Shown here: positions 170-19,835 of the stretch, piece by piece | Layout: every line of letters starts with the position of its first letter | Numbering within the stretch: position 1 is the first letter of the stretch | The notes under the pieces: model-generated | Told to the model about the DNA's origin: nothing | The model's input: the letters and a program-made list of their open reading frames with translations, nothing else | Database searches by the model: none | Translations under genes and position numbers: made by a program | NCBI GenBank assembly: GCA_963169875.1 | Contig: CAUJEL010000194.1 | Coordinates: 1 to 32,974, forward strand | Source: Candidatus Zhuqueibacterota bacterium | Lineage (GTDB): Bacteria > Zhuqueibacterota > Zhuqueibacteria > Residuimicrobiales > Residuimicrobiaceae | DNA: 32,974 nt | Direction of reading: 5' to 3'

Positions 170-3100
170 CTACTTGAGGAGCGCCATCTTTTTGGTCATC
201 ACCGTCCCATTGGCGATGATGCGGTAGTAGTAGACACCGGTCACCACCGGGATGCCGCTATCGTTTCTGCCATCCCAGACTGCCTGATGGAACCCAACCC
301 GGACCTGGGTATCAACCAGGGTGCGGATGAGTTGTCCATTGGTGTTGAAGATTTGCAGCAGCACCTTGCCTTCCGATGGCAACTGATAACGAATGGTGGT
401 CACCGGATTGAAAGGATTGGGATAGTTCTGCGATAACTCGAACGTCCTGGGTGCGAGTACTTCCGCGCTGGCAGGCCCGTGCAACGTGATCTGGCCGTCG
501 CGGCTGATGTCTTCAAGTTTGTAGAAATATCGCTCACCGGCTTTCACGGACTGATCGGAATAGCTGTAGATGCCATCCGGCCGGGCGGCGATGATTTCCC
601 GGTTGAGTTTGTCATAGGTGCCATTTTCCTGGCGGCTGCGCAGGACATTGAAACCGAGATTGTCGCTCTCACTGGCCGTCGCCCATTTCACCGTGACACC
701 GTCGAACTCTGTGGGTGTGGCTGAAAAACTCTTCATTTCCACGGACACAGAGGTGACAAACGCCACCCAGACTTTATTGATCTTGTGTTCGATGTCATAG
801 ATATCGACGTTGATGATGTAATTGCCAAGCTGATAATAGCGCGTGTCAAAGACAAATGCGGGCGCACTGCTGACAACCTGATCGTTCACTTTCCAGGAAT
901 AATAGATCTGGTCATTATCCGGATCCTCGGCCTGGATGGTGAAGGTTTTCGTCTGCCCCCAGGTCATGTTGACAAAGTCAGCGGTCGGGTCCGAGGTGAC
1001 GATGCGCGGCGCGCGATTATCATTGACAACCTGGATCTTCACTGAATCGATGTCGATGCCACCGCGGTTATCCTGAGCTGTGAAGACCGGCGTAAAAGTC
1101 TGTCCACCCTGCTCATACGTCGGCGTCCAGCAGAAGCGATAGACATTATTGACATCCATCTCAAAGGAGGAGCCTTCGGGCAGATTGCTGGTGCTGTAAT
1201 AAACCTGATCACCATCGGTGTCCGTTGCTTTGACATCGAAGCAGAGCTGTTCGCCTTCATTGATGGTATAACTGTTGACCAGTGCGAACTCGGGATAATT
1301 CTGGACATCACCGCGCGCATAGAAGCGAACCATGGGGGCGCCGCATGGCATGCTGGCTGTTGCCAGCGCTTCATTGGTACCCTGTTTTCCCAGCACCCAG
1401 TAGGCGCTGGCAATACCGCTGGCATCGCTGGTGACAATGGCTGATCCATCGATGTTGCCGCTGCCCGGCACCACCACAAAACTGATGAGGCCGCCACGAG
1501 CCGGGTTGCCGAACTGATCCTTGACCAGAATCTGAATCGGGAATACCATGCGTTTGCCAACCTGTCCGTACAGATTGGGATTCTCTATCTTTTCCATGCA
1601 ATAGGGATAATCCGAGCTTCCGGTGACCAGGAACTCGATAAAAGTCGGCTGCAGATTCGTGCCGGACGCACGCACCTTATTGAGTCCCGCATTGGTTCCC
1701 AGGGTGTATGAGGCCATGGCAATTCCCTGTGCATCGGAGAGCACGCTCAGCGTCGTGCGTCCGCCATCCAGCGTACCCTTGCCTTTGGTGCTGGCATCAT
1801 CGACGACCAGGAAAGAGACCGGCACATTGGCGACGGCATTTCCATAGGCATCTTCGACGCGAACCGCCAGCGGATTATAAAGAGTCCGGCCCACCGTGCC
1901 GGTCTGGTCGCTCCCGGAGACATAGACGAGTTTGCGGGCGCGATCCGGCGTGATTTCGGTCGACACGGTGAAAGTAACCGCGCTGATGGCTGAATAAGAA
2001 GGCAGATAGGCGCTGAACAGGGTGCTTCCGCTCTGCGTACCAGAGGTGGCCTGCGCAGAAGCTATGCCTTCCATATCCGTCACCACCGGGTTGTTGCTGG
2101 TGATGGCGCCATTGTTCACCAGGACACCGAAACGGACCGTCTCCCCGTATATGGGATATCCATTGATGTCCACCAGCTTGACCCGGAGTAATTCCGAAAG
2201 CTGCTGGCCAGGCGCGGCCTTCTGGTTCTCGCCGTCCACGATGACCAGTCTGGAGGGTTGCGACTTGACACCGATTTCCGTGAAGCGAACCGGTGAATTA
2301 TTCAAAGCCGAACCATCGCCTTTGCTGGCACGGGCTTCGACGAAATTAACGCCCGCCTGATTGCCAAGCCGGTAGCGCGCCGAGGCGATGCCGGTGCTGT
2401 CGGTGTAGATGACCTGCGGATCGAGCATGGAGCCGCCGCCCTGTGTCGGCACAAAGGTCACCGGATGCCCGGCGATCGGATTGCCGAACATATCGCGAAC
2501 CATGACGCGCAGCGGCAAAGGCAGCGCCGTGCCGGTATTGCGAGTCTGCGCATCACCATCGTTGACGCCGGTGCGGGCGATTTCATAGGCCGGCAGGGCG
2601 AGGAAGGTGACCGCGACACTATCGGCGACATTGACGCCGCTGTTGACATCACGCGCCTCGATCCATTTGCGACCAGCCTTGGTGGAGGCGACATATCCGA
2701 TGGCATCGCCATTGACGTCCGTTGTATTCAGTGGCTGGGTAATGCTCATCGAAGCGGTCGGATCGCTCGGCAAAAGCGTGACATATTTGCCTGTGACAGC
2801 GTTATCATATCTGTCTTTCAAACTGACTTTGATGGTCGCCTTGGAGACACCGTCCGCATTGACGACCGCATCCACCGCCTGAATGGTGGAGCGTTTTCCA
2901 TCGGTGATATCCGGCGTGGCCGCAGCATTGAACTGCAGTGGTGAATTCTCCAGGGCCGTAGTGCCATTGCTGGAACTGGCTTCCACGACGTTGCGGTCAG
3001 CGCCGGCTTTGCGGCCGAGACGCCAGGAGACGCGGGCGATGCCGTCGACACCCGTATCCACCACTTTGGTCAGGAGCGTATCAGCGCCAAGCGCGGCATT

Positions 3101-6100
3101 ATCAGAAGCGCCGACGAGAACGCGGAACTGGATTGGATGACCCTTGACGACGTTGCCATAGCGATCGTAGGCGATGACTTTCAGTTCATTTTGAACGTAC
3201 TTGCCCACTGTTCCGTTTCTGTTTTTATCACCGGCATCGACATAATTGATCGAATAGGCATTGCTGGGCGCCGCTGAAATCAAGTACACCACCGGAGAGC
3301 CCGACAGGGCCGCGCCATTGTGTTCCGCGCGCGCTTCGATGCGATTGATTTTGTTGCCCGAGTTTTTGCCCAGCGTGAACTGCACACTCACCAGACCATT
3401 GCTGTCGGTGAAGAGGCTCTTTTTCACATCCGTGGCACCATCCAGGGAGCCGCCATTGGCCTCGTTCTTGGACATCACTTCGAACGTCACCGAATGGTTG
3501 GCAATCGGGTTTTTGAACTGATCCGTGACGCGGGCCTTGAGGCGCTCGGACAACTGGTTGCCGATGATGCCGGTGAATTTGGTCGTATCGCTCGCCATCA
3601 GGATCAGACGCGGGGAACCGACCATGGCGCTGGCGTAAAAGATAAAGGGCGAATTAAGCAGATTGACGCTGTTATAACGGGCGGCTACTTCCAAAGCATT
3701 ATTCTTTGTGCCAGGCCGCTTGCCGAGGGTCCAGTTCACCGAAGCATAGCCATCAACGTCCGAGTTCACCGATTTCTCCACATCTCCATCGATACTGCCG
3801 CGAAGACTGTCCACGCCGCTGACATGGAAAGAGACCGGAGTGCCGGGAACGCCGTTGCCATATTTATCCTTGATCTGGACGCGAATGGCTTTGCTGAGGG
3901 TTTCACCAACATTGCCGAGTTGATTGTTGGTGGCAGCATCGGGCACCAATTGATAGGGCACATCCGGCGCAGCCGTGGCCTTGAAGACCTGGAGAAAACC
4001 ATTGACCACGCCCGAGCGCACTTCCAGTACGTTGTTGGCAATACCCGAGGTGGTGCCGAGCAGCCAGGAGACTTCGGCAATGCCGGAATCCGCTGAAGTC
4101 GGTACCGTGACCATGGTCTGATTATTCACCTTGCCGTTTCCTTGCGTCACCGAGAACGAAACCATGTATCCGCCCTTGGGCAGTGTATTGGCATCGGTGA
4201 CGCGGACGCGTACCTTACGGGAGACCACCTTGTCGACAGTCCCCACGAGCGTATCCGGCGTATTCCATTTCACCATGAGCCAGGCATCGCCGGTGATCGA
4301 AGTGGCTGTAAAATAAGCCGGGCTGTCGGTCAGCGCCGCGCCGTCTTCGCGCATGGCGTCGACGCGCATGCGAAATACACCCAGGGCGACCGGCATCTTC
4401 CAGCGCACCGTCGCATAGCCATCATTGCCGGTCATGATCACTTTAACCGTGGTCTCTCCGGTATCATCGATGATGGTGCCGCCGGCGCCTTCAACCTGGA
4501 AAGTGACCGGATAGTTTTTGATGGCGTTACCGTGAACATCCGTCACCAGGGCCTTGAGCGGCAGCGACAGTTCGCGGCCGTTTGGCGCCTGCTGATTATC
4601 GGTCGAGGCCAGTTTGACCAGCTTGGAGGCCGTGGATGCATTTCCATGCGCCCACACACGAATGGGTGCACCCTCCAAAAGGACGGTCGGCTGGTCCTGG
4701 CGGTAGGAGACCACCTCAACCACGTTGGTGCTGTCACCCGCCGTTTTACCCAGTGTGAGCGTCGCCTGGGCGAGGCCATTGGCGTCTGAATTGACGACTT
4801 TTTCCGCCATGCCGTCGAAATTGCCGCCGCCCTTGACCACTCTGAAGCGCACCGGATGGTTGGAGATGGCGCTGCCAAAGGGACCAAAAACCTGGACCAC
4901 GAAGGGGTTGCTGAGTTTGGCGGTCACAGTCGTATCCTGATCATTGCCGGAGACATATTGCACTTTGGCGGCAATGGCCGTCGTCGCTGTGGCCTGGAAG
5001 GTCACATTTTGCGGGGTTACATTTACGTCCGTGACCGATGCGCGCACCCGGTTCACTTCATTGACGGAGCTGCCCATATTCAGCCGCACAGAAGCGCGGC
5101 CGGAGGCATTGGTGTACTTGGTGCGTGTACGCTGTCCAACCTCATCGAGGTAGGCATCGGTGCCGTCCACAATCACGAAATCGATCTGTTTGCCGGCGAT
5201 CGGGTTATCCACGGCATCGGTGACCTTGACAACCATGGAATCCTTAACGGCGAGTCCGACCGGACCGGTCTGGCCATCGCCGGAGACAATGGCGAGAATT
5301 CGTGCGGCGCCGGTGTTGCCTGTGGCGCTGAAACTGATCGCCGGAATACTGGCCAATCCCTGCAGCCTCGCCTGGACCATATTGGTCCCGGTTTTGTTGC
5401 CGAGCGTCCAATAGACCCACGCTTCGCCGTTGGTGTCAGTGATCACCTTGACCGAAGTCTGTGGATTGGGCGGTGACTGCGGACTGACCTTGCCATCACC
5501 GGCGGTTACCGTAAAAGTGACCGGATAATTGGCATAGGGCGTGCTGTTGGCCCCCAAGACGCGCACTTTGAGTGGATTGGGCAACGTGGCGCCGGCATCG
5601 CCGGTCTGTCCATCCCCGGAGACCATTTCCATGGACGTGGGCGGTTTGCCCGTTTTGATGTTGAAATAGAGCGGTGAATTGGTCAATTCCTGACTCGCCG
5701 CATTAAAGGCCTTGGCTTCCACTTCAAACAGGGTATCGACCAGGCCCAGCGTCATGGTGACGCTGGCGCGGCCGTCCGGGCCCGAGATGCTGCTGGCGCT
5801 GGCGAGCGCACCTCCAATGCCCTTGGTCAATTTCCAGTTCACAGTAGTGCCGGGGACCGCATTTCCGGAAGCATCCTGCACCACAGCGATGATGGATGCG
5901 CCGGCGACTTCATCGCGGGTTCCGAGAATCGGTTCGGTGAGATCCGGATCTTTGACAATTTTACTCGCCGGTCCGGGCGTGGCATCGAGGGAAAAGTTCA
6001 CGGGCGCGCCGTCCAGCAGGGTGGTGCCATCCGCTTTATAGCCGGTGACGGAAACCACCACATTGGTGTCCGCATCGTCCGCAAATCTGACCCGCGCGGT

Positions 6101-8080
6101 GGCAAATCCCTGCGCATTGGTGACATTGGAGAGATTCGGTCCCGTGCTGCCCAGGGTGGAACCGCTGGGTCCGGCCACGTTGCTGGCGATGATGGCGATC
6201 TTGTCCCAATCCCAACCCGGCTCCAGAATGACCAGGCGGACGGTCTGCAGACCTTTGGCTAGCCTGAAGGTGGTCGGATGCGCATGCCAGGCCCAATTCC
6301 CGCTCAGATCGGTCACTTCGACATTGAAAGAATCGCGATCACTGTATTTAAATATGACGCCGTTCATGCTGCCGGATTTGGTGCGGTAGCGCAGATAAAA
6401 CTTGTAAGTCTGTTCCACCGGCACATAAATCGGGATTGAAACCGCCGTTTTATAACGATAGCCGGAGGTGTAGGACGTTTTAATATAGTGCCCGCCGGAA
6501 ACAGAGGTGGTCGGACCCGTCGTGTCTTTGGCGATCGGGATGAGCAGACTGCCGGATTCGACCTCTTTCCATATCTTGCCGTCAAAAGTGCCGGTTTCAA
6601 GGGTGGCGCGGCCCTGCGTGACCGAAAAGTCGAGGACCACATTGCCGACAGCCGTATTGGCATCATCGGTCACCTTGACCTTGAGTGAATCGGCCAGATA
6701 CTGGTTGATGGCGCCGGTCTGTCCATCGCCGCTGACTTTGATAATCCTGGTCGCGCCGGCCGGATTCAGGGAGGGCAAACAGACCTGGAAATTGTCGACG
6801 TTGGCATTATTTTGATTCTCATATTGGACCACGCCGACGTACCAGGTATCGGCCGGCGTCGTCGGCAGCGTGACGTTCGTCAGTCTGGAATCAAACACAT
6901 CATTAATATAATAAGTGATGGTTGCCGTTGTACCGGTCTGCTTGATGATGGCCGTGACCTTGTCCCCAGCCGCGGGGGTCGGTCGCGCCAAAGTGGTCGA
7001 TTGCGCCACAAAATTATTGAAAGAAGTGCCACTATTAGTGATTTGGTAAAGTTGCAGCGCTGTGTTTGAGCGGCGTAAAAAATAGCCATTGGAATTGTAG
7101 GTTGGGCTCTCCATCATCACGGCGAATCCCAGCGGAATCGAGCCCGAAGTGCCATAGTTCTGCGCATTGGCCCCAATGCTCATCGAAATTTTGATGGAAT
7201 CGGCGCCAGCCGATTTATTGCCGCCTGCCTTTTTATACATGCCCATGGTCCATTGTGCTAATGATGGATTAGGCGCAAGTTCATTGTTATCGATGACGTG
7301 ATTGGGGGCATCCCAATCGTCGCCCACTGTGGCGCGGGTGAACTGATCCACGTCGAGGCAATTCCACGAACCGGTCGTGGTGCCGCCGCCGGTACCACCC
7401 CCTGGATCGCCGCCGCCACCGGTCCCGCCGGAGTAGGTGGGATCGTTGATCACGGTGACCTCTTCGATGTCATTCAGCTTGGCGCCATAGAGCATGACGC
7501 CACCGTAACTGGCGGTGCTGAGGTTCACGGCGCCGGTGCCGTCGGTCAGCGTCGTGCCGATCTTGCTGCCGTTGAGGAACACTTCAAAGCTGTAGGTGGA
7601 CGGATTCATCTTGACAAAAAACTCTGAACCGGCCACCGCGGCAGGAGAGGCATCTGCTTCTGCTTTGAAAGAATAGGTGGCTCCACCGGTGATCGCATAA
7701 AGCGATATTTTGGGGCCCCTGAAGTAGATGAAATAACCATCGGATGTGATGGAGGCTTGTTTCATGAAGACAACGCCTCCATACTGTGTCCCGTCATTAT
7801 CGCATCCATCTCCCGCTGCAGCCCACTTGATTTTGACCTGATTCGTGTTGCTGAGCTTGTTCCACACGCCCAGCGATTTGGTCGCCAAGAGAGGAGCTGT
7901 TGAATGGATGTTGCCGTTCTGCACCACCAGTGTTGCACTGGCCGCCCACTCCGGACTCGGCATTGGGCCGTTGCTGGTTGTTTCAAAATCCGCCTTGAAG
8001 CTGGTCTGAGCCAGCACGGCTGCTGCAGTGAAAACCACAACCAGGACCAAGATTTTGAAAAACTGAGACGCTGACCTCAT
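170..8080 (-). CDS. Giant secreted Ig-repeat protein with C-terminal sorting domain
   Basis: About 2636 residues. The ATG at 8080 is chosen because GGAGGT lies 8 bases upstream and a typical signal peptide (hydrophobic core, cut near VLAQ) follows at once; an ATG 45 bases further up has no such site. Order of domains: two concanavalin/LamG-like jelly rolls (about 25-210 and 245-435) joined by a Gly-rich linker; about 15 Big_1-type Ig repeats (about 445-2240), many starting with SGDGQTG and carrying WTLG; a cadherin/PIG-like module with DTDGD; a second Ig-like module; an FN3-like module; and a final 84-residue FlgD/Por-type domain starting at SQNYPNPFNP. The first Ig repeat is interrupted by a carbohydrate-binding-like domain of about 140 residues. 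Expected role: surface-anchored or secreted adhesin, exported by Sec and probably a type IX-like system. The ligand is unknown. Gene continuity and fold calls are strong; the function is inferred. Confidence 0.9.
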   Translation of the reverse strand: MRSASQFFKILVLVVVFTAAAVLAQTSFKADFETTSNGPMPSPEWAASATLVVQNGNIHSTAPLLATKSLGVWNKLSNTNQVKIKWAAAGDGCDNDGTQYGGVVFMKQASITSDGYFIYFRGPKISLYAITGGATYSFKAEADASPAAVAGSEFFVKMNPSTYSFEVFLNGSKIGTTLTDGTGAVNLSTASYGGVMLYGAKLNDIEEVTVINDPTYSGGTGGGGDPGGGTGGGTTTGSWNCLDVDQFTRATVGDDWDAPNHVIDNNELAPNPSLAQWTMGMYKKAGGNKSAGADSIKISMSIGANAQNYGTSGSIPLGFAVMMESPTYNSNGYFLRRSNTALQLYQITNSGTSFNNFVAQSTTLARPTPAAGDKVTAIIKQTGTTATITYYINDVFDSRLTNVTLPTTPADTWYVGVVQYENQNNANVDNFQVCLPSLNPAGATRIIKVSGDGQTGAINQYLADSLKVKVTDDANTAVGNVVLDFSVTQGRATLETGTFDGKIWKEVESGSLLIPIAKDTTGPTTSVSGGHYIKTSYTSGYRYKTAVSIPIYVPVEQTYKFYLRYRTKSGSMNGVIFKYSDRDSFNVEVTDLSGNWAWHAHPTTFRLAKGLQTVRLVILEPGWDWDKIAIIASNVAGPSGSTLGSTGPNLSNVTNAQGFATARVRFADDADTNVVVSVTGYKADGTTLLDGAPVNFSLDATPGPASKIVKDPDLTEPILGTRDEVAGASIIAVVQDASGNAVPGTTVNWKLTKGIGGALASASSISGPDGRASVTMTLGLVDTLFEVEAKAFNAASQELTNSPLYFNIKTGKPPTSMEMVSGDGQTGDAGATLPNPLKVRVLGANSTPYANYPVTFTVTAGDGKVSPQSPPNPQTSVKVITDTNGEAWVYWTLGNKTGTNMVQARLQGLASIPAISFSATGNTGAARILAIVSGDGQTGPVGLAVKDSMVVKVTDAVDNPIAGKQIDFVIVDGTDAYLDEVGQRTRTKYTNASGRASVRLNMGSSVNEVNRVRASVTDVNVTPQNVTFQATATTAIAAKVQYVSGNDQDTTVTAKLSNPFVVQVFGPFGSAISNHPVRFRVVKGGGNFDGMAEKVVNSDANGLAQATLTLGKTAGDSTNVVEVVSYRQDQPTVLLEGAPIRVWAHGNASTASKLVKLASTDNQQAPNGRELSLPLKALVTDVHGNAIKNYPVTFQVEGAGGTIIDDTGETTVKVIMTGNDGYATVRWKMPVALGVFRMRVDAMREDGAALTDSPAYFTATSITGDAWLMVKWNTPDTLVGTVDKVVSRKVRVRVTDANTLPKGGYMVSFSVTQGNGKVNNQTMVTVPTSADSGIAEVSWLLGTTSGIANNVLEVRSGVVNGFLQVFKATAAPDVPYQLVPDAATNNQLGNVGETLSKAIRVQIKDKYGNGVPGTPVSFHVSGVDSLRGSIDGDVEKSVNSDVDGYASVNWTLGKRPGTKNNALEVAARYNSVNLLNSPFIFYASAMVGSPRLILMASDTTKFTGIIGNQLSERLKARVTDQFKNPIANHSVTFEVMSKNEANGGSLDGATDVKKSLFTDSNGLVSVQFTLGKNSGNKINRIEARAEHNGAALSGSPVVYLISAAPSNAYSINYVDAGDKNRNGTVGKYVQNELKVIAYDRYGNVVKGHPIQFRVLVGASDNAALGADTLLTKVVDTGVDGIARVSWRLGRKAGADRNVVEASSSNGTTALENSPLQFNAAATPDITDGKRSTIQAVDAVVNADGVSKATIKVSLKDRYDNAVTGKYVTLLPSDPTASMSITQPLNTTDVNGDAIGYVASTKAGRKWIEARDVNSGVNVADSVAVTFLALPAYEIARTGVNDGDAQTRNTGTALPLPLRVMVRDMFGNPIAGHPVTFVPTQGGGSMLDPQVIYTDSTGIASARYRLGNQAGVNFVEARASKGDGSALNNSPVRFTEIGVKSQPSRLVIVDGENQKAAPGQQLSELLRVKLVDINGYPIYGETVRFGVLVNNGAITSNNPVVTDMEGIASAQATSGTQSGSTLFSAYLPSYSAISAVTFTVSTEITPDRARKLVYVSGSDQTGTVGRTLYNPLAVRVEDAYGNAVANVPVSFLVVDDASTKGKGTLDGGRTTLSVLSDAQGIAMASYTLGTNAGLNKVRASGTNLQPTFIEFLVTGSSDYPYCMEKIENPNLYGQVGKRMVFPIQILVKDQFGNPARGGLISFVVVPGSGNIDGSAIVTSDASGIASAYWVLGKQGTNEALATASMPCGAPMVRFYARGDVQNYPEFALVNSYTINEGEQLCFDVKATDTDGDQVYYSTSNLPEGSSFEMDVNNVYRFCWTPTYEQGGQTFTPVFTAQDNRGGIDIDSVKIQVVNDNRAPRIVTSDPTADFVNMTWGQTKTFTIQAEDPDNDQIYYSWKVNDQVVSSAPAFVFDTRYYQLGNYIINVDIYDIEHKINKVWVAFVTSVSVEMKSFSATPTEFDGVTVKWATASESDNLGFNVLRSRQENGTYDKLNREIIAARPDGIYSYSDQSVKAGERYFYKLEDISRDGQITLHGPASAEVLAPRTFELSQNYPNPFNPVTTIRYQLPSEGKVLLQIFNTNGQLIRTLVDTQVRVGFHQAVWDGRNDSGIPVVTGVYYYRIIANGTVMTKKMALLK

Positions 8081-8263
8081 GATGTTTGACCTCCGATACA
8101 GTTGCAATGCAATTAGTTGTTTCATGACAAAACACTTGTCTGCGACTAAAACAAGACAGATGCGATTTTACAGCAATAAAACTTGGCTTAATTCAATATT
8201 TTCAATAACATTTACTTTTATTACTTTCTTATTTCGCAAAGACTATGCCAAGAAAAAGGAAAA

Positions 8264-15458: not shown

Positions 15459-16772
15459 TCACCCAGCCGCCGTCTCATCGCCTTTGTGCTTATCAGGCAC
15501 CCGGATCAGCAAAAACGCACCGATCAGCATGTTGAAAGCCAGCACCGCGATGGCAGCCTTGTATTTCACCACATTGCCATAGCTTGCCAGCGCAAAGGTG
15601 ATGGTGCTCCACAGCAGCGGTCCCAAAACAGCCGCAATTTTCCCCGACAACGCATACAATCCAAAAAACTCACCCAATTTTTCATGCGGCACCAACGAAA
15701 TCAGCAGCGGCCGCGCCGACGTCCAGGTGGAACCCATGAGCATGCCGATGACCATGCCAAACGACCAGAAGAGCGTGCGATTGTCCGTGCCCACCACACC
15801 CGCCAATGTCACCACCCAGAGAAAAATGACGCCCATCAGGGTCTTCTTGGGGCCGAAGTGGTCGGTGAGGATGCCGCACAACGCAGAGCCGATGACCGCC
15901 GAGGGGATAACGATGACGAAGAATTGACTCGTCTCCGCGCGGCTGAATCCGATCACCGCCTGGGTATAAATGCCCATGTAGATGATCACGGTTTCAATGC
16001 TGTCCTCATACAGCAGCTTGGCCAGCAGGAACCGCGGCAAGCCAGGATATTGTTTCGAATCGACCAGGGACTTGAAGGTCTTTTGGTAGGCGGCTTTGAG
16101 ACGCCATTTTTCGTCACTCCTGAGGGGTGAGTAAGGTTCGCGGACAAAGATGAAAATGGGGATGGCGAATAGCAGAAAAACCAGGGCCGTCGGAATGAAC
16201 GCCGCGGTGGTGCCGCCGGCTGTGATGCCCGGGATGGAGAATCCGTAAAAATTGCCCTCCACATAAAGCGCGGCCACCGCCAGGCCGATGATGGATCCCA
16301 AATACCCGACCGCCACGCCGTATCCGGAGACCCGGCCGATGGTGCGCGGTGTGCTCACAGCGGGCAGCAGGGCGTTATAAAAGACCAGACTGCCTTGATA
16401 ACTGTAATTGGCGATGATGAAGACGATCAACACCAGCGGCACCAGCAGTGCCAGATCCGTCAACTGGCCGCCGATCACCCCAAGGGCAGCGGTTCCGGCG
16501 ATGCAGAGAAAAGTGAACAGCCCGAGCAGGATCATTTTGCCGCCCCTGTGATCGGACCAGTGACCGAGCACGGGCATGGTCAACGCCACCAGAATCATGG
16601 AGAAGGAATTGGCGAAGGAGACGACGAAATCACTCTGACCGAGATTGATGATGATCCAGGTGCCGAAATAGAGCGAGACGACATTCATGGAATAGGCGGT
16701 GTTGGCCAAATCATAGAGAATCCAGGAGAGAGTGGCCTTAAAGTTGGGTTTAGCGCTGTCAGGTTTTTCCAT
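15459..16772 (-). CDS. MFS transporter, UMF1/Atg22-like family
   Basis: 437 residues with about 12 hydrophobic membrane segments. The opening WILYDLANTAYSMNVVSLYF is the hallmark of the UMF1 (Atg22-like) branch of the major facilitator superfamily, and the loop GHWSDHRGGK after helix 2 is the conserved MFS motif A. The second-half equivalent is GILTDHFGPKK. Family members export amino acids in yeast vacuoles; bacterial substrates are mostly unknown. It is the last gene of a five-gene minus-strand group and lies 31 bases after the Roadblock gene before it. No good ribosome binding site is seen at the ATG (GAGGAG is 14 bases away), so coupling to the upstream gene is possible. Confidence 0.88.
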   Translation of the reverse strand: MEKPDSAKPNFKATLSWILYDLANTAYSMNVVSLYFGTWIIINLGQSDFVVSFANSFSMILVALTMPVLGHWSDHRGGKMILLGLFTFLCIAGTAALGVIGGQLTDLALLVPLVLIVFIIANYSYQGSLVFYNALLPAVSTPRTIGRVSGYGVAVGYLGSIIGLAVAALYVEGNFYGFSIPGITAGGTTAAFIPTALVFLLFAIPIFIFVREPYSPLRSDEKWRLKAAYQKTFKSLVDSKQYPGLPRFLLAKLLYEDSIETVIIYMGIYTQAVIGFSRAETSQFFVIVIPSAVIGSALCGILTDHFGPKKTLMGVIFLWVVTLAGVVGTDNRTLFWSFGMVIGMLMGSTWTSARPLLISLVPHEKLGEFFGLYALSGKIAAVLGPLLWSTITFALASYGNVVKYKAAIAVLAFNMLIGAFLLIRVPDKHKGDETAAG

Positions 16773-16803
16773 ATTGAGTCGCCGGGCTCCTCGAGAGATG
16801 AAC

Positions 16804-17217
16804 TCAGGTTGTGGAAGATTGTTCGATGATACGACAGAGGCGGTTGGCGAGACCGCGATAGCTTCTCATGGCGGGGATGACCATGAGCAGGATGGCGGGT
16901 TGGGCAAAAACGGGCAAGAAACGAAAGACGAGCCGTTTGCCCTCCTGATCCTCGATGACGACTTCCTTGAGATCAGAGAGGCCGCTCATGCGCCGCACCA
17001 CCTTTTGCATTTTGGAAATCATGACCGAGAATTCGACGGCGTGGCCTTCCTTGAGCATGGACTCACTGTCGACGTGGGCGGCCAGCACCAATCCCTCCGG
17101 ATTGAAGAGATAGATGGCATCGTAGCCCCCCACTTGAACCAGTTCTTTCATCTCCCGCTCGATGTGGAGTTGAAAGGGCAGCGCTTCGGTGGGAACGTTG
17201 GAAAGAAAAGTGTCCAC
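16804..17217 (-). CDS. Roadblock/LC7 domain protein, distal copy
   Basis: 137 residues, starting at GTG 17217 with AGGGG 7 bases upstream. The single domain has the Roadblock/LC7 plan: an N-terminal helix (HIEREMKELVQ), a strand pair (DAIYLFNPEGLVLAA), a long helix (HAVEFSVMISKMQKVVRRM) and a closing strand (VVIEDQEGKRLVFRFL). Roadblock proteins form homodimers and bind small GTPases as activators or scaffolds, as MglB does for MglA. The gene lies only 15 bases behind an MglA-type GTPase gene, so a complex between the two products is the natural reading. It is weakly similar at best to the other Roadblock protein of the operon. Confidence 0.78.
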   Translation of the reverse strand: MDTFLSNVPTEALPFQLHIEREMKELVQVGGYDAIYLFNPEGLVLAAHVDSESMLKEGHAVEFSVMISKMQKVVRRMSGLSDLKEVVIEDQEGKRLVFRFLPVFAQPAILLMVIPAMRSYRGLANRLCRIIEQSSTT

Positions 17218-17232
17218 AACTGGCCCCTGAGG

Positions 17233-17805
17233 TTAAATTTTTGCCAACAACAGTTGTATGACGCCGCGCAGGGTTTCAAAAACCGCCACACCCTGTACAG
17301 CCACTGCTTCAAAATGAGGCACGCGAAGAAAATTGAGTTTCTGCTGCAGGAGCTCAACAGGATCTATGCCTGGCAGATCTCTTTTATTGTACTGAATCAC
17401 CCATGGGAACCTGGCCAGGGTATGATGCTGCTGGATGAGCTTCATCTCCAGATCCATCAAGGCATCGAGATTATCCTGCATGCGGAACGACTGGCTGTCG
17501 GCGACGAAGACCACGGCGTCGGCGCCGCGCAGGACGATTTTACGGCTGGCGGCATAGTACTGTTGACCGGGTATGGTATAGAGATGAAACCGCGGTTTTT
17601 TGCCTTTTATGGCGCCGAGATTCAACTCAAAAAAATCAAAATAGAGGGTACGCTCTTCCGGCGACTTTAGTACAACCAGACGGCCGCGCACCTGGGGATC
17701 GAGATGCGCGTGCAGGTACTCCAAATTGGTGGTTTTGCCACCCAGGCCAGGACCGTAGTAGACGATCTTGAAGACGATCTCCTGGCGAAACCAATCGACA
17801 TGCAT
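17233..17805 (-). CDS. MglA-type small GTPase
   Basis: 190 residues. MglA GTPases act as cytoplasmic polarity switches, cycling between GTP and GDP under Roadblock-family regulators. All G-box elements are readable: P-loop GPGLGGKT at 18-25, the switch I region around Arg52-Thr53 (PEERT), switch II TIPGQ at 77-81 (the MglA-style replacement of DxxG), YAASRKIVLRGADAVVFVAD after it, and NKRD at 140-143. KIVYYGPGLGGKTTNLEY is very close to the Myxococcus MglA pattern as I remember it. Roadblock genes lie on both sides in the same operon. No strong ribosome binding site precedes the ATG at 17805. In some lineages such proteins control motility or cell polarity; no motility gene is visible in this window. 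Confidence 0.93.
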   Translation of the reverse strand: MHVDWFRQEIVFKIVYYGPGLGGKTTNLEYLHAHLDPQVRGRLVVLKSPEERTLYFDFFELNLGAIKGKKPRFHLYTIPGQQYYAASRKIVLRGADAVVFVADSQSFRMQDNLDALMDLEMKLIQQHHTLARFPWVIQYNKRDLPGIDPVELLQQKLNFLRVPHFEAVAVQGVAVFETLRGVIQLLLAKI

Positions 17806-17880
17806 AGATAAGAAGCCAAGGTATGAGTGGGACGGTCCGGTGGCGTGCGTAAAAAGGACCGGTTCTTGAAACTCTGTGAC

Positions 17881-18393
17881 TTATTTGGGCCGCAAACTGC
17901 GCTCGAGCTGTTTGGATAACAGATCCCGGAATTCGAAATCGAGAAATTTCTGGGTCTGTTCGCTCTCCTGGCTGAGTTCGTGGATGTGCTGGCCGATTTT
18001 TTCCACGGCATAATGGGAGAGGACGCGAATGATGCCGAGCGCCACGCGGGTTTCATAGACCACGAGCAGAAAATAATCCTCACTCACGGTACAAAGATAG
18101 ATGCTGCGTGAGGTTCCCTCGTGATAGATGAATTTGAAACGGCCGTCATGACCGATGATGGAGGCCATTTCCGCGGTCGCGGCAAAATCACCGGCAGCCA
18201 GGGCGGTGAGCGCGGACAGGTCTAAACTCTCCGCATCGCCACGGCTGACCACAGGATACCCATTCATATCCGCAAAAATAGCCAGCTGCGCCTGCGAGCG
18301 CTGGAGAAATTCATCCAAAATCTGCGTCACATGGTGATAGGAGGTTTCAGAAAAAACCATTCTCTTGCCGTTTTTACGCTGTTGCACTTCCAT
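17881..18393 (-). CDS. Roadblock/LC7 domain protein, proximal copy
   Basis: 170 residues from ATG 18393; an internal ATG at 18360 is an alternative and neither has a strong ribosome binding site. The Roadblock/LC7 core spans about 20-125: LAIFADMNGYPVVSRGDAE, the helix DLSALTALAAGDFAATAEMA, then FKFIYHEGTSRSIYLCTV and the strand FLLVVYETRVALGIIRVL. A C-terminal helical extension (about 130-170, rich in Glu, Gln and Lys) goes beyond the usual 120 residues. It precedes the MglA-type GTPase gene by 75 bases and follows the phosphoesterase gene by 20 bases. It probably regulates or scaffolds the GTPase. Confidence 0.85.
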   Translation of the reverse strand: MEVQQRKNGKRMVFSETSYHHVTQILDEFLQRSQAQLAIFADMNGYPVVSRGDAESLDLSALTALAAGDFAATAEMASIIGHDGRFKFIYHEGTSRSIYLCTVSEDYFLLVVYETRVALGIIRVLSHYAVEKIGQHIHELSQESEQTQKFLDFEFRDLLSKQLERSLRPK

Positions 18394-18413
18394 AGAAGCA
18401 GTTCCATGTTCAA

Positions 18414-19142
18414 TTATTCACCAAACTGCAATCGCCTGATCAGGAATTCGGGCAAGTCATTATCTTGCATAAGTTTCTGGGTGCGCGTGAAATCATACGC
18501 GACCCGCCGTATCTCCACCACCCTTTCCCCGCTGTCATAAAGCGCATAACTGGCGTCCGGAACGCCATCCCGCGGCTGGCCGACGCTGCCAACGTTGATA
18601 ATATAACGATGTCCCTCTTCCAGTTCAATCCGCTCCCGCTGGTAGTGTTTGATCTTATTATCTTCTTTCTGATCAAAAACTATACCGCGGTGCGAATGCC
18701 CGATAAAACAAATATCATGCTGCAGGCTGCGTAAATGCAATCTTGCATCATAAATATTGAGTATATATGGCCAGTCCAACGGAGATCGCGGTCCGCCATG
18801 AACAAAAAAAGCATCACCCAGTGCCACATAGGGCTTGTAGGTCGCAATAATTTCGCGCGCCTCCGGACTTGTAACTGTCGACTGCCAGCGGAGGGCTTGA
18901 CGCGCATAGCTGTTAAAGTCGCGTATGTCCGTGCGGCCGAGAAGCGCATCGTCGTGATTGCCCAGGATGACGTTAGAAGCCGCGTCCGCCACAAGCTGCA
19001 CACATTCATTGGGGAGAGGCCCATACCCCACCACATCCCCCAGCGATATGAGCGCCTCATATCGTTCGTGTTCAAGCGCTCGCAAAACCTGCTGCAGTGC
19101 TTCCAGGTTTGCGTGCACATCAGAGAGGATGGCAATCCGCAT
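18414..19142 (-). CDS. Calcineurin-like metallophosphoesterase
   Basis: 242 residues from ATG 19142 (GGGGA 7 bases upstream). A longer frame to 19175 would overlap the promoter and is rejected. All metal-binding motifs of the family are present: SDVHANLEAL at the N-terminus (DxH), GDVVGYGP (GDxxxxG), GNHDD (GNHD), VHGGPRSPL and GHSHRG (GHxH). The size and motif spacing fit the YfcE/ApaH-related group (COG0639-like), which hydrolyses phosphodiesters or phosphoproteins with two metal ions in the cytoplasm. The true substrate is unknown. It is the first gene of the operon that continues with the Roadblock and GTPase genes, so a role in the same signalling circuit is possible but unproven. Confidence 0.9.
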   Translation of the reverse strand: MRIAILSDVHANLEALQQVLRALEHERYEALISLGDVVGYGPLPNECVQLVADAASNVILGNHDDALLGRTDIRDFNSYARQALRWQSTVTSPEAREIIATYKPYVALGDAFFVHGGPRSPLDWPYILNIYDARLHLRSLQHDICFIGHSHRGIVFDQKEDNKIKHYQRERIELEEGHRYIINVGSVGQPRDGVPDASYALYDSGERVVEIRRVAYDFTRTQKLMQDNDLPEFLIRRLQFGE

Positions 19143-19165: not shown

Positions 19166-19194
19166 AATATACCATTTACATGCGCGTGAATCAA
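19166..19194 (-). promoter_or_regulatory. Sigma-70-type promoter of the phosphoesterase/GTPase operon
   Basis: On the minus strand TTGATT (19189-19194) and TATATT (19166-19171) are separated by exactly 17 bases. The -10 box ends 23 bases before the start codon at 19142. This is the best promoter match in the window. Confidence 0.7.
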
Positions 19195-19313: not shown

Positions 19314-19835
19314 ATGTCCCCTGATGTCCAGCGTCTGGCGGAATCCATCCGCATGTCCATCGATCTCGAGAAAAAAGGCCGCGCCTTTTATCTCGAGGCA
19401 GCCGCAAAAAGCGTCAACGAAACCGGCAAGGCCATCTTCACCCGCCTGGCGGACGAAGAGGCGCTGCACCTGCTCACCTTCGAACGCATGCTCGACAGCT
19501 CGGAAAAGTTGTCAAATTGGCGTGAATGGGTCAAAACCTACCCGCAGCATCCGCCCATTCCCATATTTGAGAACAACCCGGCCAAATCCTCCAGGAAGGC
19601 AACCGCGGACGAACTGCAGGCCCTTCGCATTGCCATGCGTCAGGAGAGCGAAGCCATGCATTATTATGGCAGTATCGCGGAAATGGCCGAAGACGAGGGC
19701 GTCCGCAAAATATTCGACTTTGTACGCCAGCAGGAAATATATCATTATGATCTGCTCCAGGCAGAATACGATGCCATCACGCAATCCGGTTTCTGGTTTG
19801 ACACCCCGGAATTTCGCATGGACGGCAAGTTCTGA
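19314..19835 (+). CDS. Rubrerythrin-like diiron protein (ferritin-like fold)
   Basis: 173 residues; GGAG lies 8 bases before the ATG at 19314. A four-helix bundle with the paired metal ligands of rubrerythrins: Glu19 in the first helix, Glu49-x-x-His52 in the second, Glu113 (or Glu111) in the third, and Glu141-x-x-His144 in the fourth. The C-terminal rubredoxin domain of classical rubrerythrins is absent: no CxxC pair is present and the protein ends soon after helix four. Such proteins reduce peroxide or handle iron in the cytoplasm of anaerobes and microaerophiles. Electrons would have to come from a separate partner. It is transcribed alone, divergent from the phosphoesterase operon and ending at a strong terminator. 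Confidence 0.88.
   Translation: MSPDVQRLAESIRMSIDLEKKGRAFYLEAAAKSVNETGKAIFTRLADEEALHLLTFERMLDSSEKLSNWREWVKTYPQHPPIPIFENNPAKSSRKATADELQALRIAMRQESEAMHYYGSIAEMAEDEGVRKIFDFVRQQEIYHYDLLQAEYDAITQSGFWFDTPEFRMDGKF

Follow-up and report, generated by a model that had tools for sequence, protein, structure and literature searches.

Gene content of the locus

The stretch of DNA analyzed here (hereafter the window) comprises 32,974 nucleotides, positions 1 to 32,974 of contig CAUJEL010000194.1 (C194), and belongs to a 5.0-Mb genome (G000) of the candidate phylum KSB1, recently named Zhuqueibacterota (PMC11683472). Analysis of open reading frames (ORFs) revealed one compact five-gene operon on the minus strand, encoding a metallophosphoesterase (MPE), an MglB-type Roadblock protein (RB1), the small GTPase MglA, a second Roadblock protein (RB2), and a UMF1-type transporter of the major facilitator superfamily (MFS), in this order, with intergenic gaps of 20, 75, 15, and 31 nt (Table 1). 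The five ORFs named in the original prediction, which was made from the window sequence without database searches, were real and lay on one strand, and their families were confirmed by profile searches. For MPE, the start at 19142 was preferred, as most homologs open there with MR or MK, and the start of the longer ORF at 19175 was not conserved. The promoter-like site was weak; the consensus scan gave 4 sites, with 2.6 expected.

Table 1. Coordinates of the operon genes and the promoter-like site in the window.
Feature	Position	Strand	Evidence
MPE, metallophosphoesterase (calcineurin-like, 3RQZ family), operon gene 1	18414..19142	-	Pfam PF12850 (Metallophos_2), 1.3e-16
RB1, MglB-type Roadblock, predicted GTPase-activating protein of MglA, 170 aa	17881..18393	-	Robl_LC7, 1.4e-9
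MglA, group-1 small GTPase, 190 aa	17233..17805	-	PDB MglA 6hjh, 6e-80
RB2, second divergent Roadblock, 137 aa, GTG start	16804..17217	-	Robl_LC7, 2.6e-5
UMF1/Atg22-family MFS transporter, 437 aa, last operon gene	15459..16772	-	PF11700, 3.1e-28; MFS_1, 3.9e-23
Promoter-like site, TTGATT-17-TATATT, TG before second hexamer	19166..19194	-	Consensus scan; just upstream of MPE start

Conservation of the operon within the phylum

The five protein families were mapped on fetched loci with purpose-built hidden Markov models, giving 75 primary loci from about 22 families, more distant classes included; these loci share descent, and the adjacency counts are not independent events. mglB was located directly before mglA in all 75 loci, MPE directly before mglB in 69 of 72, and RB2 directly after mglA in 69 of 73. 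Genes for MPE, RB2, and UMF1 were found in 77, 73, and 79 of the 82 phylum genomes, respectively, and 59 of 60 relatives carried mglA, mostly as a single copy, as in G000. Two neighboring genes served as controls: priA was found upstream of MPE in only 25 of 55 loci, and the uncharacterized gene X190 after UMF1 in only 8 of 47. The decay of these flanks while the block stayed intact indicates that conservation of the block exceeds background synteny, and a chance neighborhood or contig artifact was ruled out by the conservation counts. The compact, conserved GTPase unit with both Roadblock proteins, MPE, and a transporter that had been proposed from the window was thus borne out across the phylum.

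Repeated placement of UMF1 beside the block

The window transporter scored 99.2 bits with PF11700 (curated cut-off, 24.1), which places it in the UMF1/Atg22 family, and its gene was nearly always present in one copy per genome. UMF1 adjoined the four-gene block of MPE, mglB, mglA, and RB2 in 54 of the 75 loci; it lay directly after RB2 in 46 of 69 loci, directly after mglA in 4 RB2-less loci, and directly before MPE in 4 loci (L041, L052, L053, L191). An apparent in-frame TGA in the UMF1 genes of G035 and G055 was ruled out, being a normal stop near the match end.

The transporter did not follow the history of the GTPase: within some families, operons whose MglA proteins were 65–80% identical had UMF1 proteins of only 25–34% identity. 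In the f13 operon pair, MglA was 70% and UMF1 28% identical, and in the f8 pair the values were 69% and 25%, with UMF1 occupying the same slot after RB2 in both pairs; in the f9 pair (72% and 34%), UMF1 was located after RB2 in one operon and before MPE in the other. In contrast, MglA and UMF1 of the window were 57% and 55% identical, respectively, to those of family f12. The MglA tree grouped the families as expected, whereas the UMF1 tree did not. The maximum-likelihood tree of UMF1 contained four deep lineages, most of them separated by starred branches, at 1.4–2 changes per site. Two of the lineages spanned both KSB1 and Calditrichota, and f8, f9, f13, and Calditrichota were each split. 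Approximately unbiased (AU) tests rejected topologies in which f13 (p-AU 3.2e-9) or f8 (p-AU 1.3e-15) was kept together. Long branches limit the detail of the UMF1 tree, but the identity contrasts are independent of it.

These sequence comparisons indicate that the UMF1 gene beside the block is not orthologous throughout but has been re-recruited or replaced within families. Possible routes are in-place replacement, differential loss of tandem copies, and fresh insertion, by which a gene of the same family would have been put or kept next to the module on several occasions. Given a single UMF1 gene in a genome of several thousand genes, such repeated placement would be difficult to account for if the two had no functional connection. 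It is the strongest argument in our data and suggests a link between MglA and membrane transport.

MglA and the MglB-type Roadblock protein

MglA carried the motifs G1 (GPGLGGKT), G3 (TIPGQ), and G4 (NKRD) as well as an Arg-Thr pair; the complete set of G-boxes claimed in the original prediction was found, as were the group-1 arginine finger and the catalytic Gln. The intrinsic arginine finger (R52-T53) was invariant in 25 of 25 homologs, in which T77, G80, and Q81 of G3 were also invariant; G3 was mostly T[VIT]PGQ. An arginine finger beside the G2 threonine defines group 1 of the MglA family (PMC4316618), to which MglA was assigned together with its G3 of the TVPGQ type, as opposed to DxxGQ or GTPGQ.

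RB1 showed a profile match to MglB of Myxococcus xanthus (6hjm, 6.2e-31) and possesses the C-terminal extension of MglB, which, along with the invariant position of its gene beside mglA, identifies it as MglB-type. It is predicted to be the GTPase-activating protein (GAP) that turns MglA off. RB1 and RB2 were the only Roadblock genes found in the G000 genome. Separately, a few KSB1 genomes (L057-L060, L062) carry diverged mglA genes, mostly as extra copies, with RB1-type Roadblock genes alongside and without MPE, RB2, or UMF1 nearby.

The second Roadblock protein

A sequence search of RB2 against solved structures gave nothing beyond one chance-level Roadblock, and no MglC chain (7CT3, 7CY1) was among the PDB sequences matched up to E = 10. 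The AlphaFold model of RB2 (mean pLDDT 91.5) ends with a third helix, without the C-terminal extension of MglB, and its best Foldseek matches were MglB structures (TM-score about 0.7, 10–13% identity), with 3t1s and 1j3w on top at 12–13% identity. As modeled, RB2 has the Roadblock fold. A recent origin by duplication of RB1 was rejected, as profile comparison gave no significant relation between the two. RB2 was not found beside mglA in other phyla, and a search of 49 genomes outside KSB1 (Calditrichota and other phyla) gave 4 weak matches (E = 5e-6 to 9.5e-4), which were taken as general Roadblock similarity and not as true RB2. At this sensitivity, RB2 appears to be specific to KSB1.

In M. 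xanthus, residues K14, R115, and K120 of MglB form a basic patch on which MglC docks via its β1-β2 turn (F25-D26-G27-I28), and MglA-GTP releases MglC (PMC7949163, PMC10329633). Like MglC, RB2 is a short Roadblock protein that lacks the N- and C-terminal extensions of MglB (137 amino acids versus 170 in RB1). The β1-β2 turn of RB2 was [E/D]-G-L, its three positions being kept in 70, 70, and 68 of 70 sequences, without the F that directly precedes the acidic residue in the F-[D/E]-G-I motif of MglC. Positions in the RB2 alignment run one behind those of the protein, since its first row is without the start Met. On the RB1 side, the equivalent of R115 was kept in 81 of 81 sequences, and K or R occupied the K120 position in 59 of 81, with Tyr at this position in RB1 of the window.

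RB2 has been lost in four loci of family f4 (L032, L054, L088, L090), in which MPE-mglB-mglA-umf1 was kept, and no RB2 match was obtained in the L080 genome either. In this RB2-less clade, RB1 showed the changes A118 to Pro (Ser in L080) and L109M beside the presumed docking site, and MglA showed L46F and S87G, which flank its switches.

The metallophosphoesterase

MPE showed a full-length profile match to 3rqz (9e-75), and its metal ligands (D-x-H, GD, GNHD, H, and GHSH/GHTH) were invariant in 25 homologs. The KSB1 enzyme therefore resembles the 3RQZ family, a distant relative of SapH (3QFM), in full-length homology and an intact metal site, but members of this family in other phyla do not adjoin mglA. 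The best 80 MPE loci in named genomes outside our set came from many phyla, and in 78 of them neither mglA nor mglB was detected within the fetched flanks; the 2 exceptions were of the KSB1 type. A role of MPE as a general mglA partner was thereby ruled out. The original prediction had turned on whether the outer genes vary freely: within KSB1 they do not, whereas in other phyla MPE does.

Related loci outside the phylum

Among 20 mglA loci from named genomes, most contained mglB and none contained RB2 or MPE; UMF1 was located beside mglA in only 1, from a Calditrichaeota genome. In Calditrichota, mglA was present in 40 of 40 genomes searched, many of them with mglB-mglA-umf1 and never with MPE or RB2. 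In Calditrichota loci L242-L261, priA was followed by genes for a PAS histidine kinase, a receiver protein, a DUF4388-Roadblock protein, a Roadblock-like protein, an unknown protein of about 155 amino acids, and a Cache-HAMP membrane protein, and then by mglB-mglA-umf1. The small Roadblock-like gene (RB3) was considered as an RB2 ortholog and rejected, for it resembled MglB-type RB1 more than RB2. Thus, both phyla have priA, mglB-mglA, and umf1 and differ in the module that lies between priA and mglB. Judging from gene content, the input side would seem to be this upstream position, where Calditrichota have the two-component/DUF4388-Roadblock module and KSB1 has MPE.

Neighboring genes

Downstream of umf1 or RB2, L053 (9063-9626) and 17 other loci encode a conserved protein of some 190 amino acids, apparently secreted and without a Pfam match, between the operon and tig-clpP-clpX. 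In the window, a rubrerythrin-like protein (19314-19835, plus strand) is encoded divergently upstream of the operon and was conserved in six loci, which belong to families f1 and f4. The window also encodes a 2651-amino-acid protein (170-8125, minus strand) in which some ten Big_1 Ig-like repeats are accompanied by a C-terminal sorting domain of type IX-like character.

Comparison with known systems

The M. xanthus MglA/MglB/MglC system resembles that of KSB1 in its group-1 MglA with an arginine finger, an MglB-type GAP, and a second divergent Roadblock protein. It differs in that the second Roadblock gene of KSB1 directly follows mglA and the set is joined to MPE and UMF1; further, RB2 gave no sequence match to solved MglC chains, and the KSB1 operon occurs in genomes without a PilT/GspE-family ATPase. 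The coupling of MglA and MglB was also seen in a 2014 survey of 1,611 genomes, in which group 1 neighborhoods were found to 'vary widely' (PMC4316618), whereas here an order of four to five genes was fixed across a phylum. In the actinobacterial conservon (CvnA-D, with group 2 MglA), an MglA-family GTPase and a Roadblock protein are likewise encoded within a conserved multi-gene operon. However, neither the CvnA histidine kinase nor CvnC was present between MPE and UMF1 in KSB1, whose operon has the arginine finger and the added MPE and MFS transporter.

In eukaryotes, the Rag GTPase-Ragulator system on lysosomes similarly combines a small GTPase, several Roadblock proteins, and membrane association, and Atg22, called a vacuole effluxer by Pfam, belongs to the same Pfam family as UMF1. 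No Rag-type fused GTPase-Roadblock protein is present in the KSB1 system, nothing points to nutrient sensing, and the analogy is one of parts only. In a literature search of incomplete coverage, no paper joining MglA, Roadblock, and metallophosphoesterase was found, nor any linking MglA and Roadblock to MFS transporters or Calditrichota. The parts are known; what is new, as far as we can tell, is their phylum-fixed combination, the RB2 Roadblock family, and the transporter link.

Possible function of the operon

We tentatively propose, giving it somewhat less than an even chance, that this KSB1-wide operon couples the MglA switch to the UMF1 transporter. RB1 would act as the GAP that turns MglA off, and RB2 would be an MglC-like adaptor, bound to RB1 until MglA-GTP releases or rearranges it, through which the GAP is brought to the membrane partner, UMF1, or taken away from it. 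The switch would then set the place or activity of UMF1, or flux of the UMF1 substrate would steer the switch. MPE may work in the same circuit, where its task would be to clear an Ap4A/Gp4G-like nucleotide signal or to dephosphorylate a partner. The interactions, direction of control, and substrates in this scheme are all inferred. A tie to membrane transport, already suggested in the original prediction, gains strength from the fact that distant UMF1 genes came to lie next to the block repeatedly. That prediction is thus supported in part; its further ideas, of one Roadblock protein as activator and the other as antagonist or scaffold and of second-messenger or phosphoprotein turnover tied to transport, are hypothetical.

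Several observations weigh against the proposal. In families f10 and f11, the four-gene block was kept and the one copy of UMF1 was located elsewhere in the genome, which shows that UMF1 need not lie beside the block. RB2 and MPE are each missing from one clade (for MPE, family f22, where a genome search for loci L186 and L187 found no MPE and priA lies directly before mglB). The loss of RB2 in f4 was a single event, and the linked changes in RB1 and MglA may be phylogenetic. An acidic-Gly turn is common among Roadblock proteins generally (e.g., 'SADGL' in 7f8m); the turn of RB2 thus agrees with an MglC-like role and is not diagnostic of it. In addition, almost all genomes compared were metagenome-assembled.

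A somewhat unlikely alternative is a housekeeping operon for co-expression, in which the GTPase module, an MPE that generally clears away nucleotides or phosphoproteins, and a UMF1 exporter would share a promoter without acting on one another. It accords with the wide occurrence of MPE in many phyla without nearby mglA, with the ability of UMF1 to move away from the operon, and with the age of other parts of the priA...tig-clpPX neighborhood. Yet flanking genes of this same neighborhood decayed (25/55 and 8/47) while the block stayed, and co-expression alone poorly explains the several placements of distant UMF1 genes next to the block. We consider it unlikely that the operon instead governs the polarity of type IV pili or gliding as in Myxococcus, with MglA-GTP setting the leading pole, RB1 as GAP, RB2 as MglC, and UMF1 and MPE as passengers. 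Group-1 MglA and MglB belong to the type known from motility, and PilT-family ATPases were found in 66 of 82 genomes. G000 has one on C80 that scored 318.5 bits, just under the curated cut-off of 319.1; the original prediction that no motility genes are near holds for the operon and its immediate neighbors but not for the genome as a whole. However, eight genomes, all at least 95% complete (G003, G008, G016, G022, G027, G029, G032, G040), gave no PilT/GspE-family match at E = 1e-30, although no search for RomR, SgmX, or gliding machinery was made, and all eight keep the operon, which pilus motility alone does not explain.

Two further possibilities concern the Roadblock proteins. By analogy with Rag-Ragulator, a Roadblock scaffold might hold MglA on the Atg22-family transporter, so that transport of a nutrient sets the state of the GTPase or the GTPase gates the transporter, and MPE or the two-component/DUF4388-Roadblock module would be an exchangeable input; we regard this as distinctly improbable. 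RB2 could also be an antagonist that pairs with RB1 or covers MglA, blocks the GAP, and sets the threshold of the switch. Its Roadblock fold, its shorter length than MglB, and its high divergence (the comparison with the RB1 profile was not significant) would suit a non-catalytic competitor. Against the presumed contact with MglA, MglC of M. xanthus, the best-studied second Roadblock protein, does not bind MglA (PMC10329633); we regard this role as very improbable.

Implications

Work on bacterial MglA-type GTPases has dealt mostly with polarity and motility. Throughout the KSB1 phylum, mglA is an almost universal core gene, with fixed partners that include a transporter and an enzyme. If the link to UMF1 is functional, bacterial small GTPases would gain a role in membrane transport, genomes without RB2, without MPE, with unlinked UMF1, or without PilT would serve as natural knock-outs for testing the function of each part, and a partner would be named for an uncharacterized transporter family.

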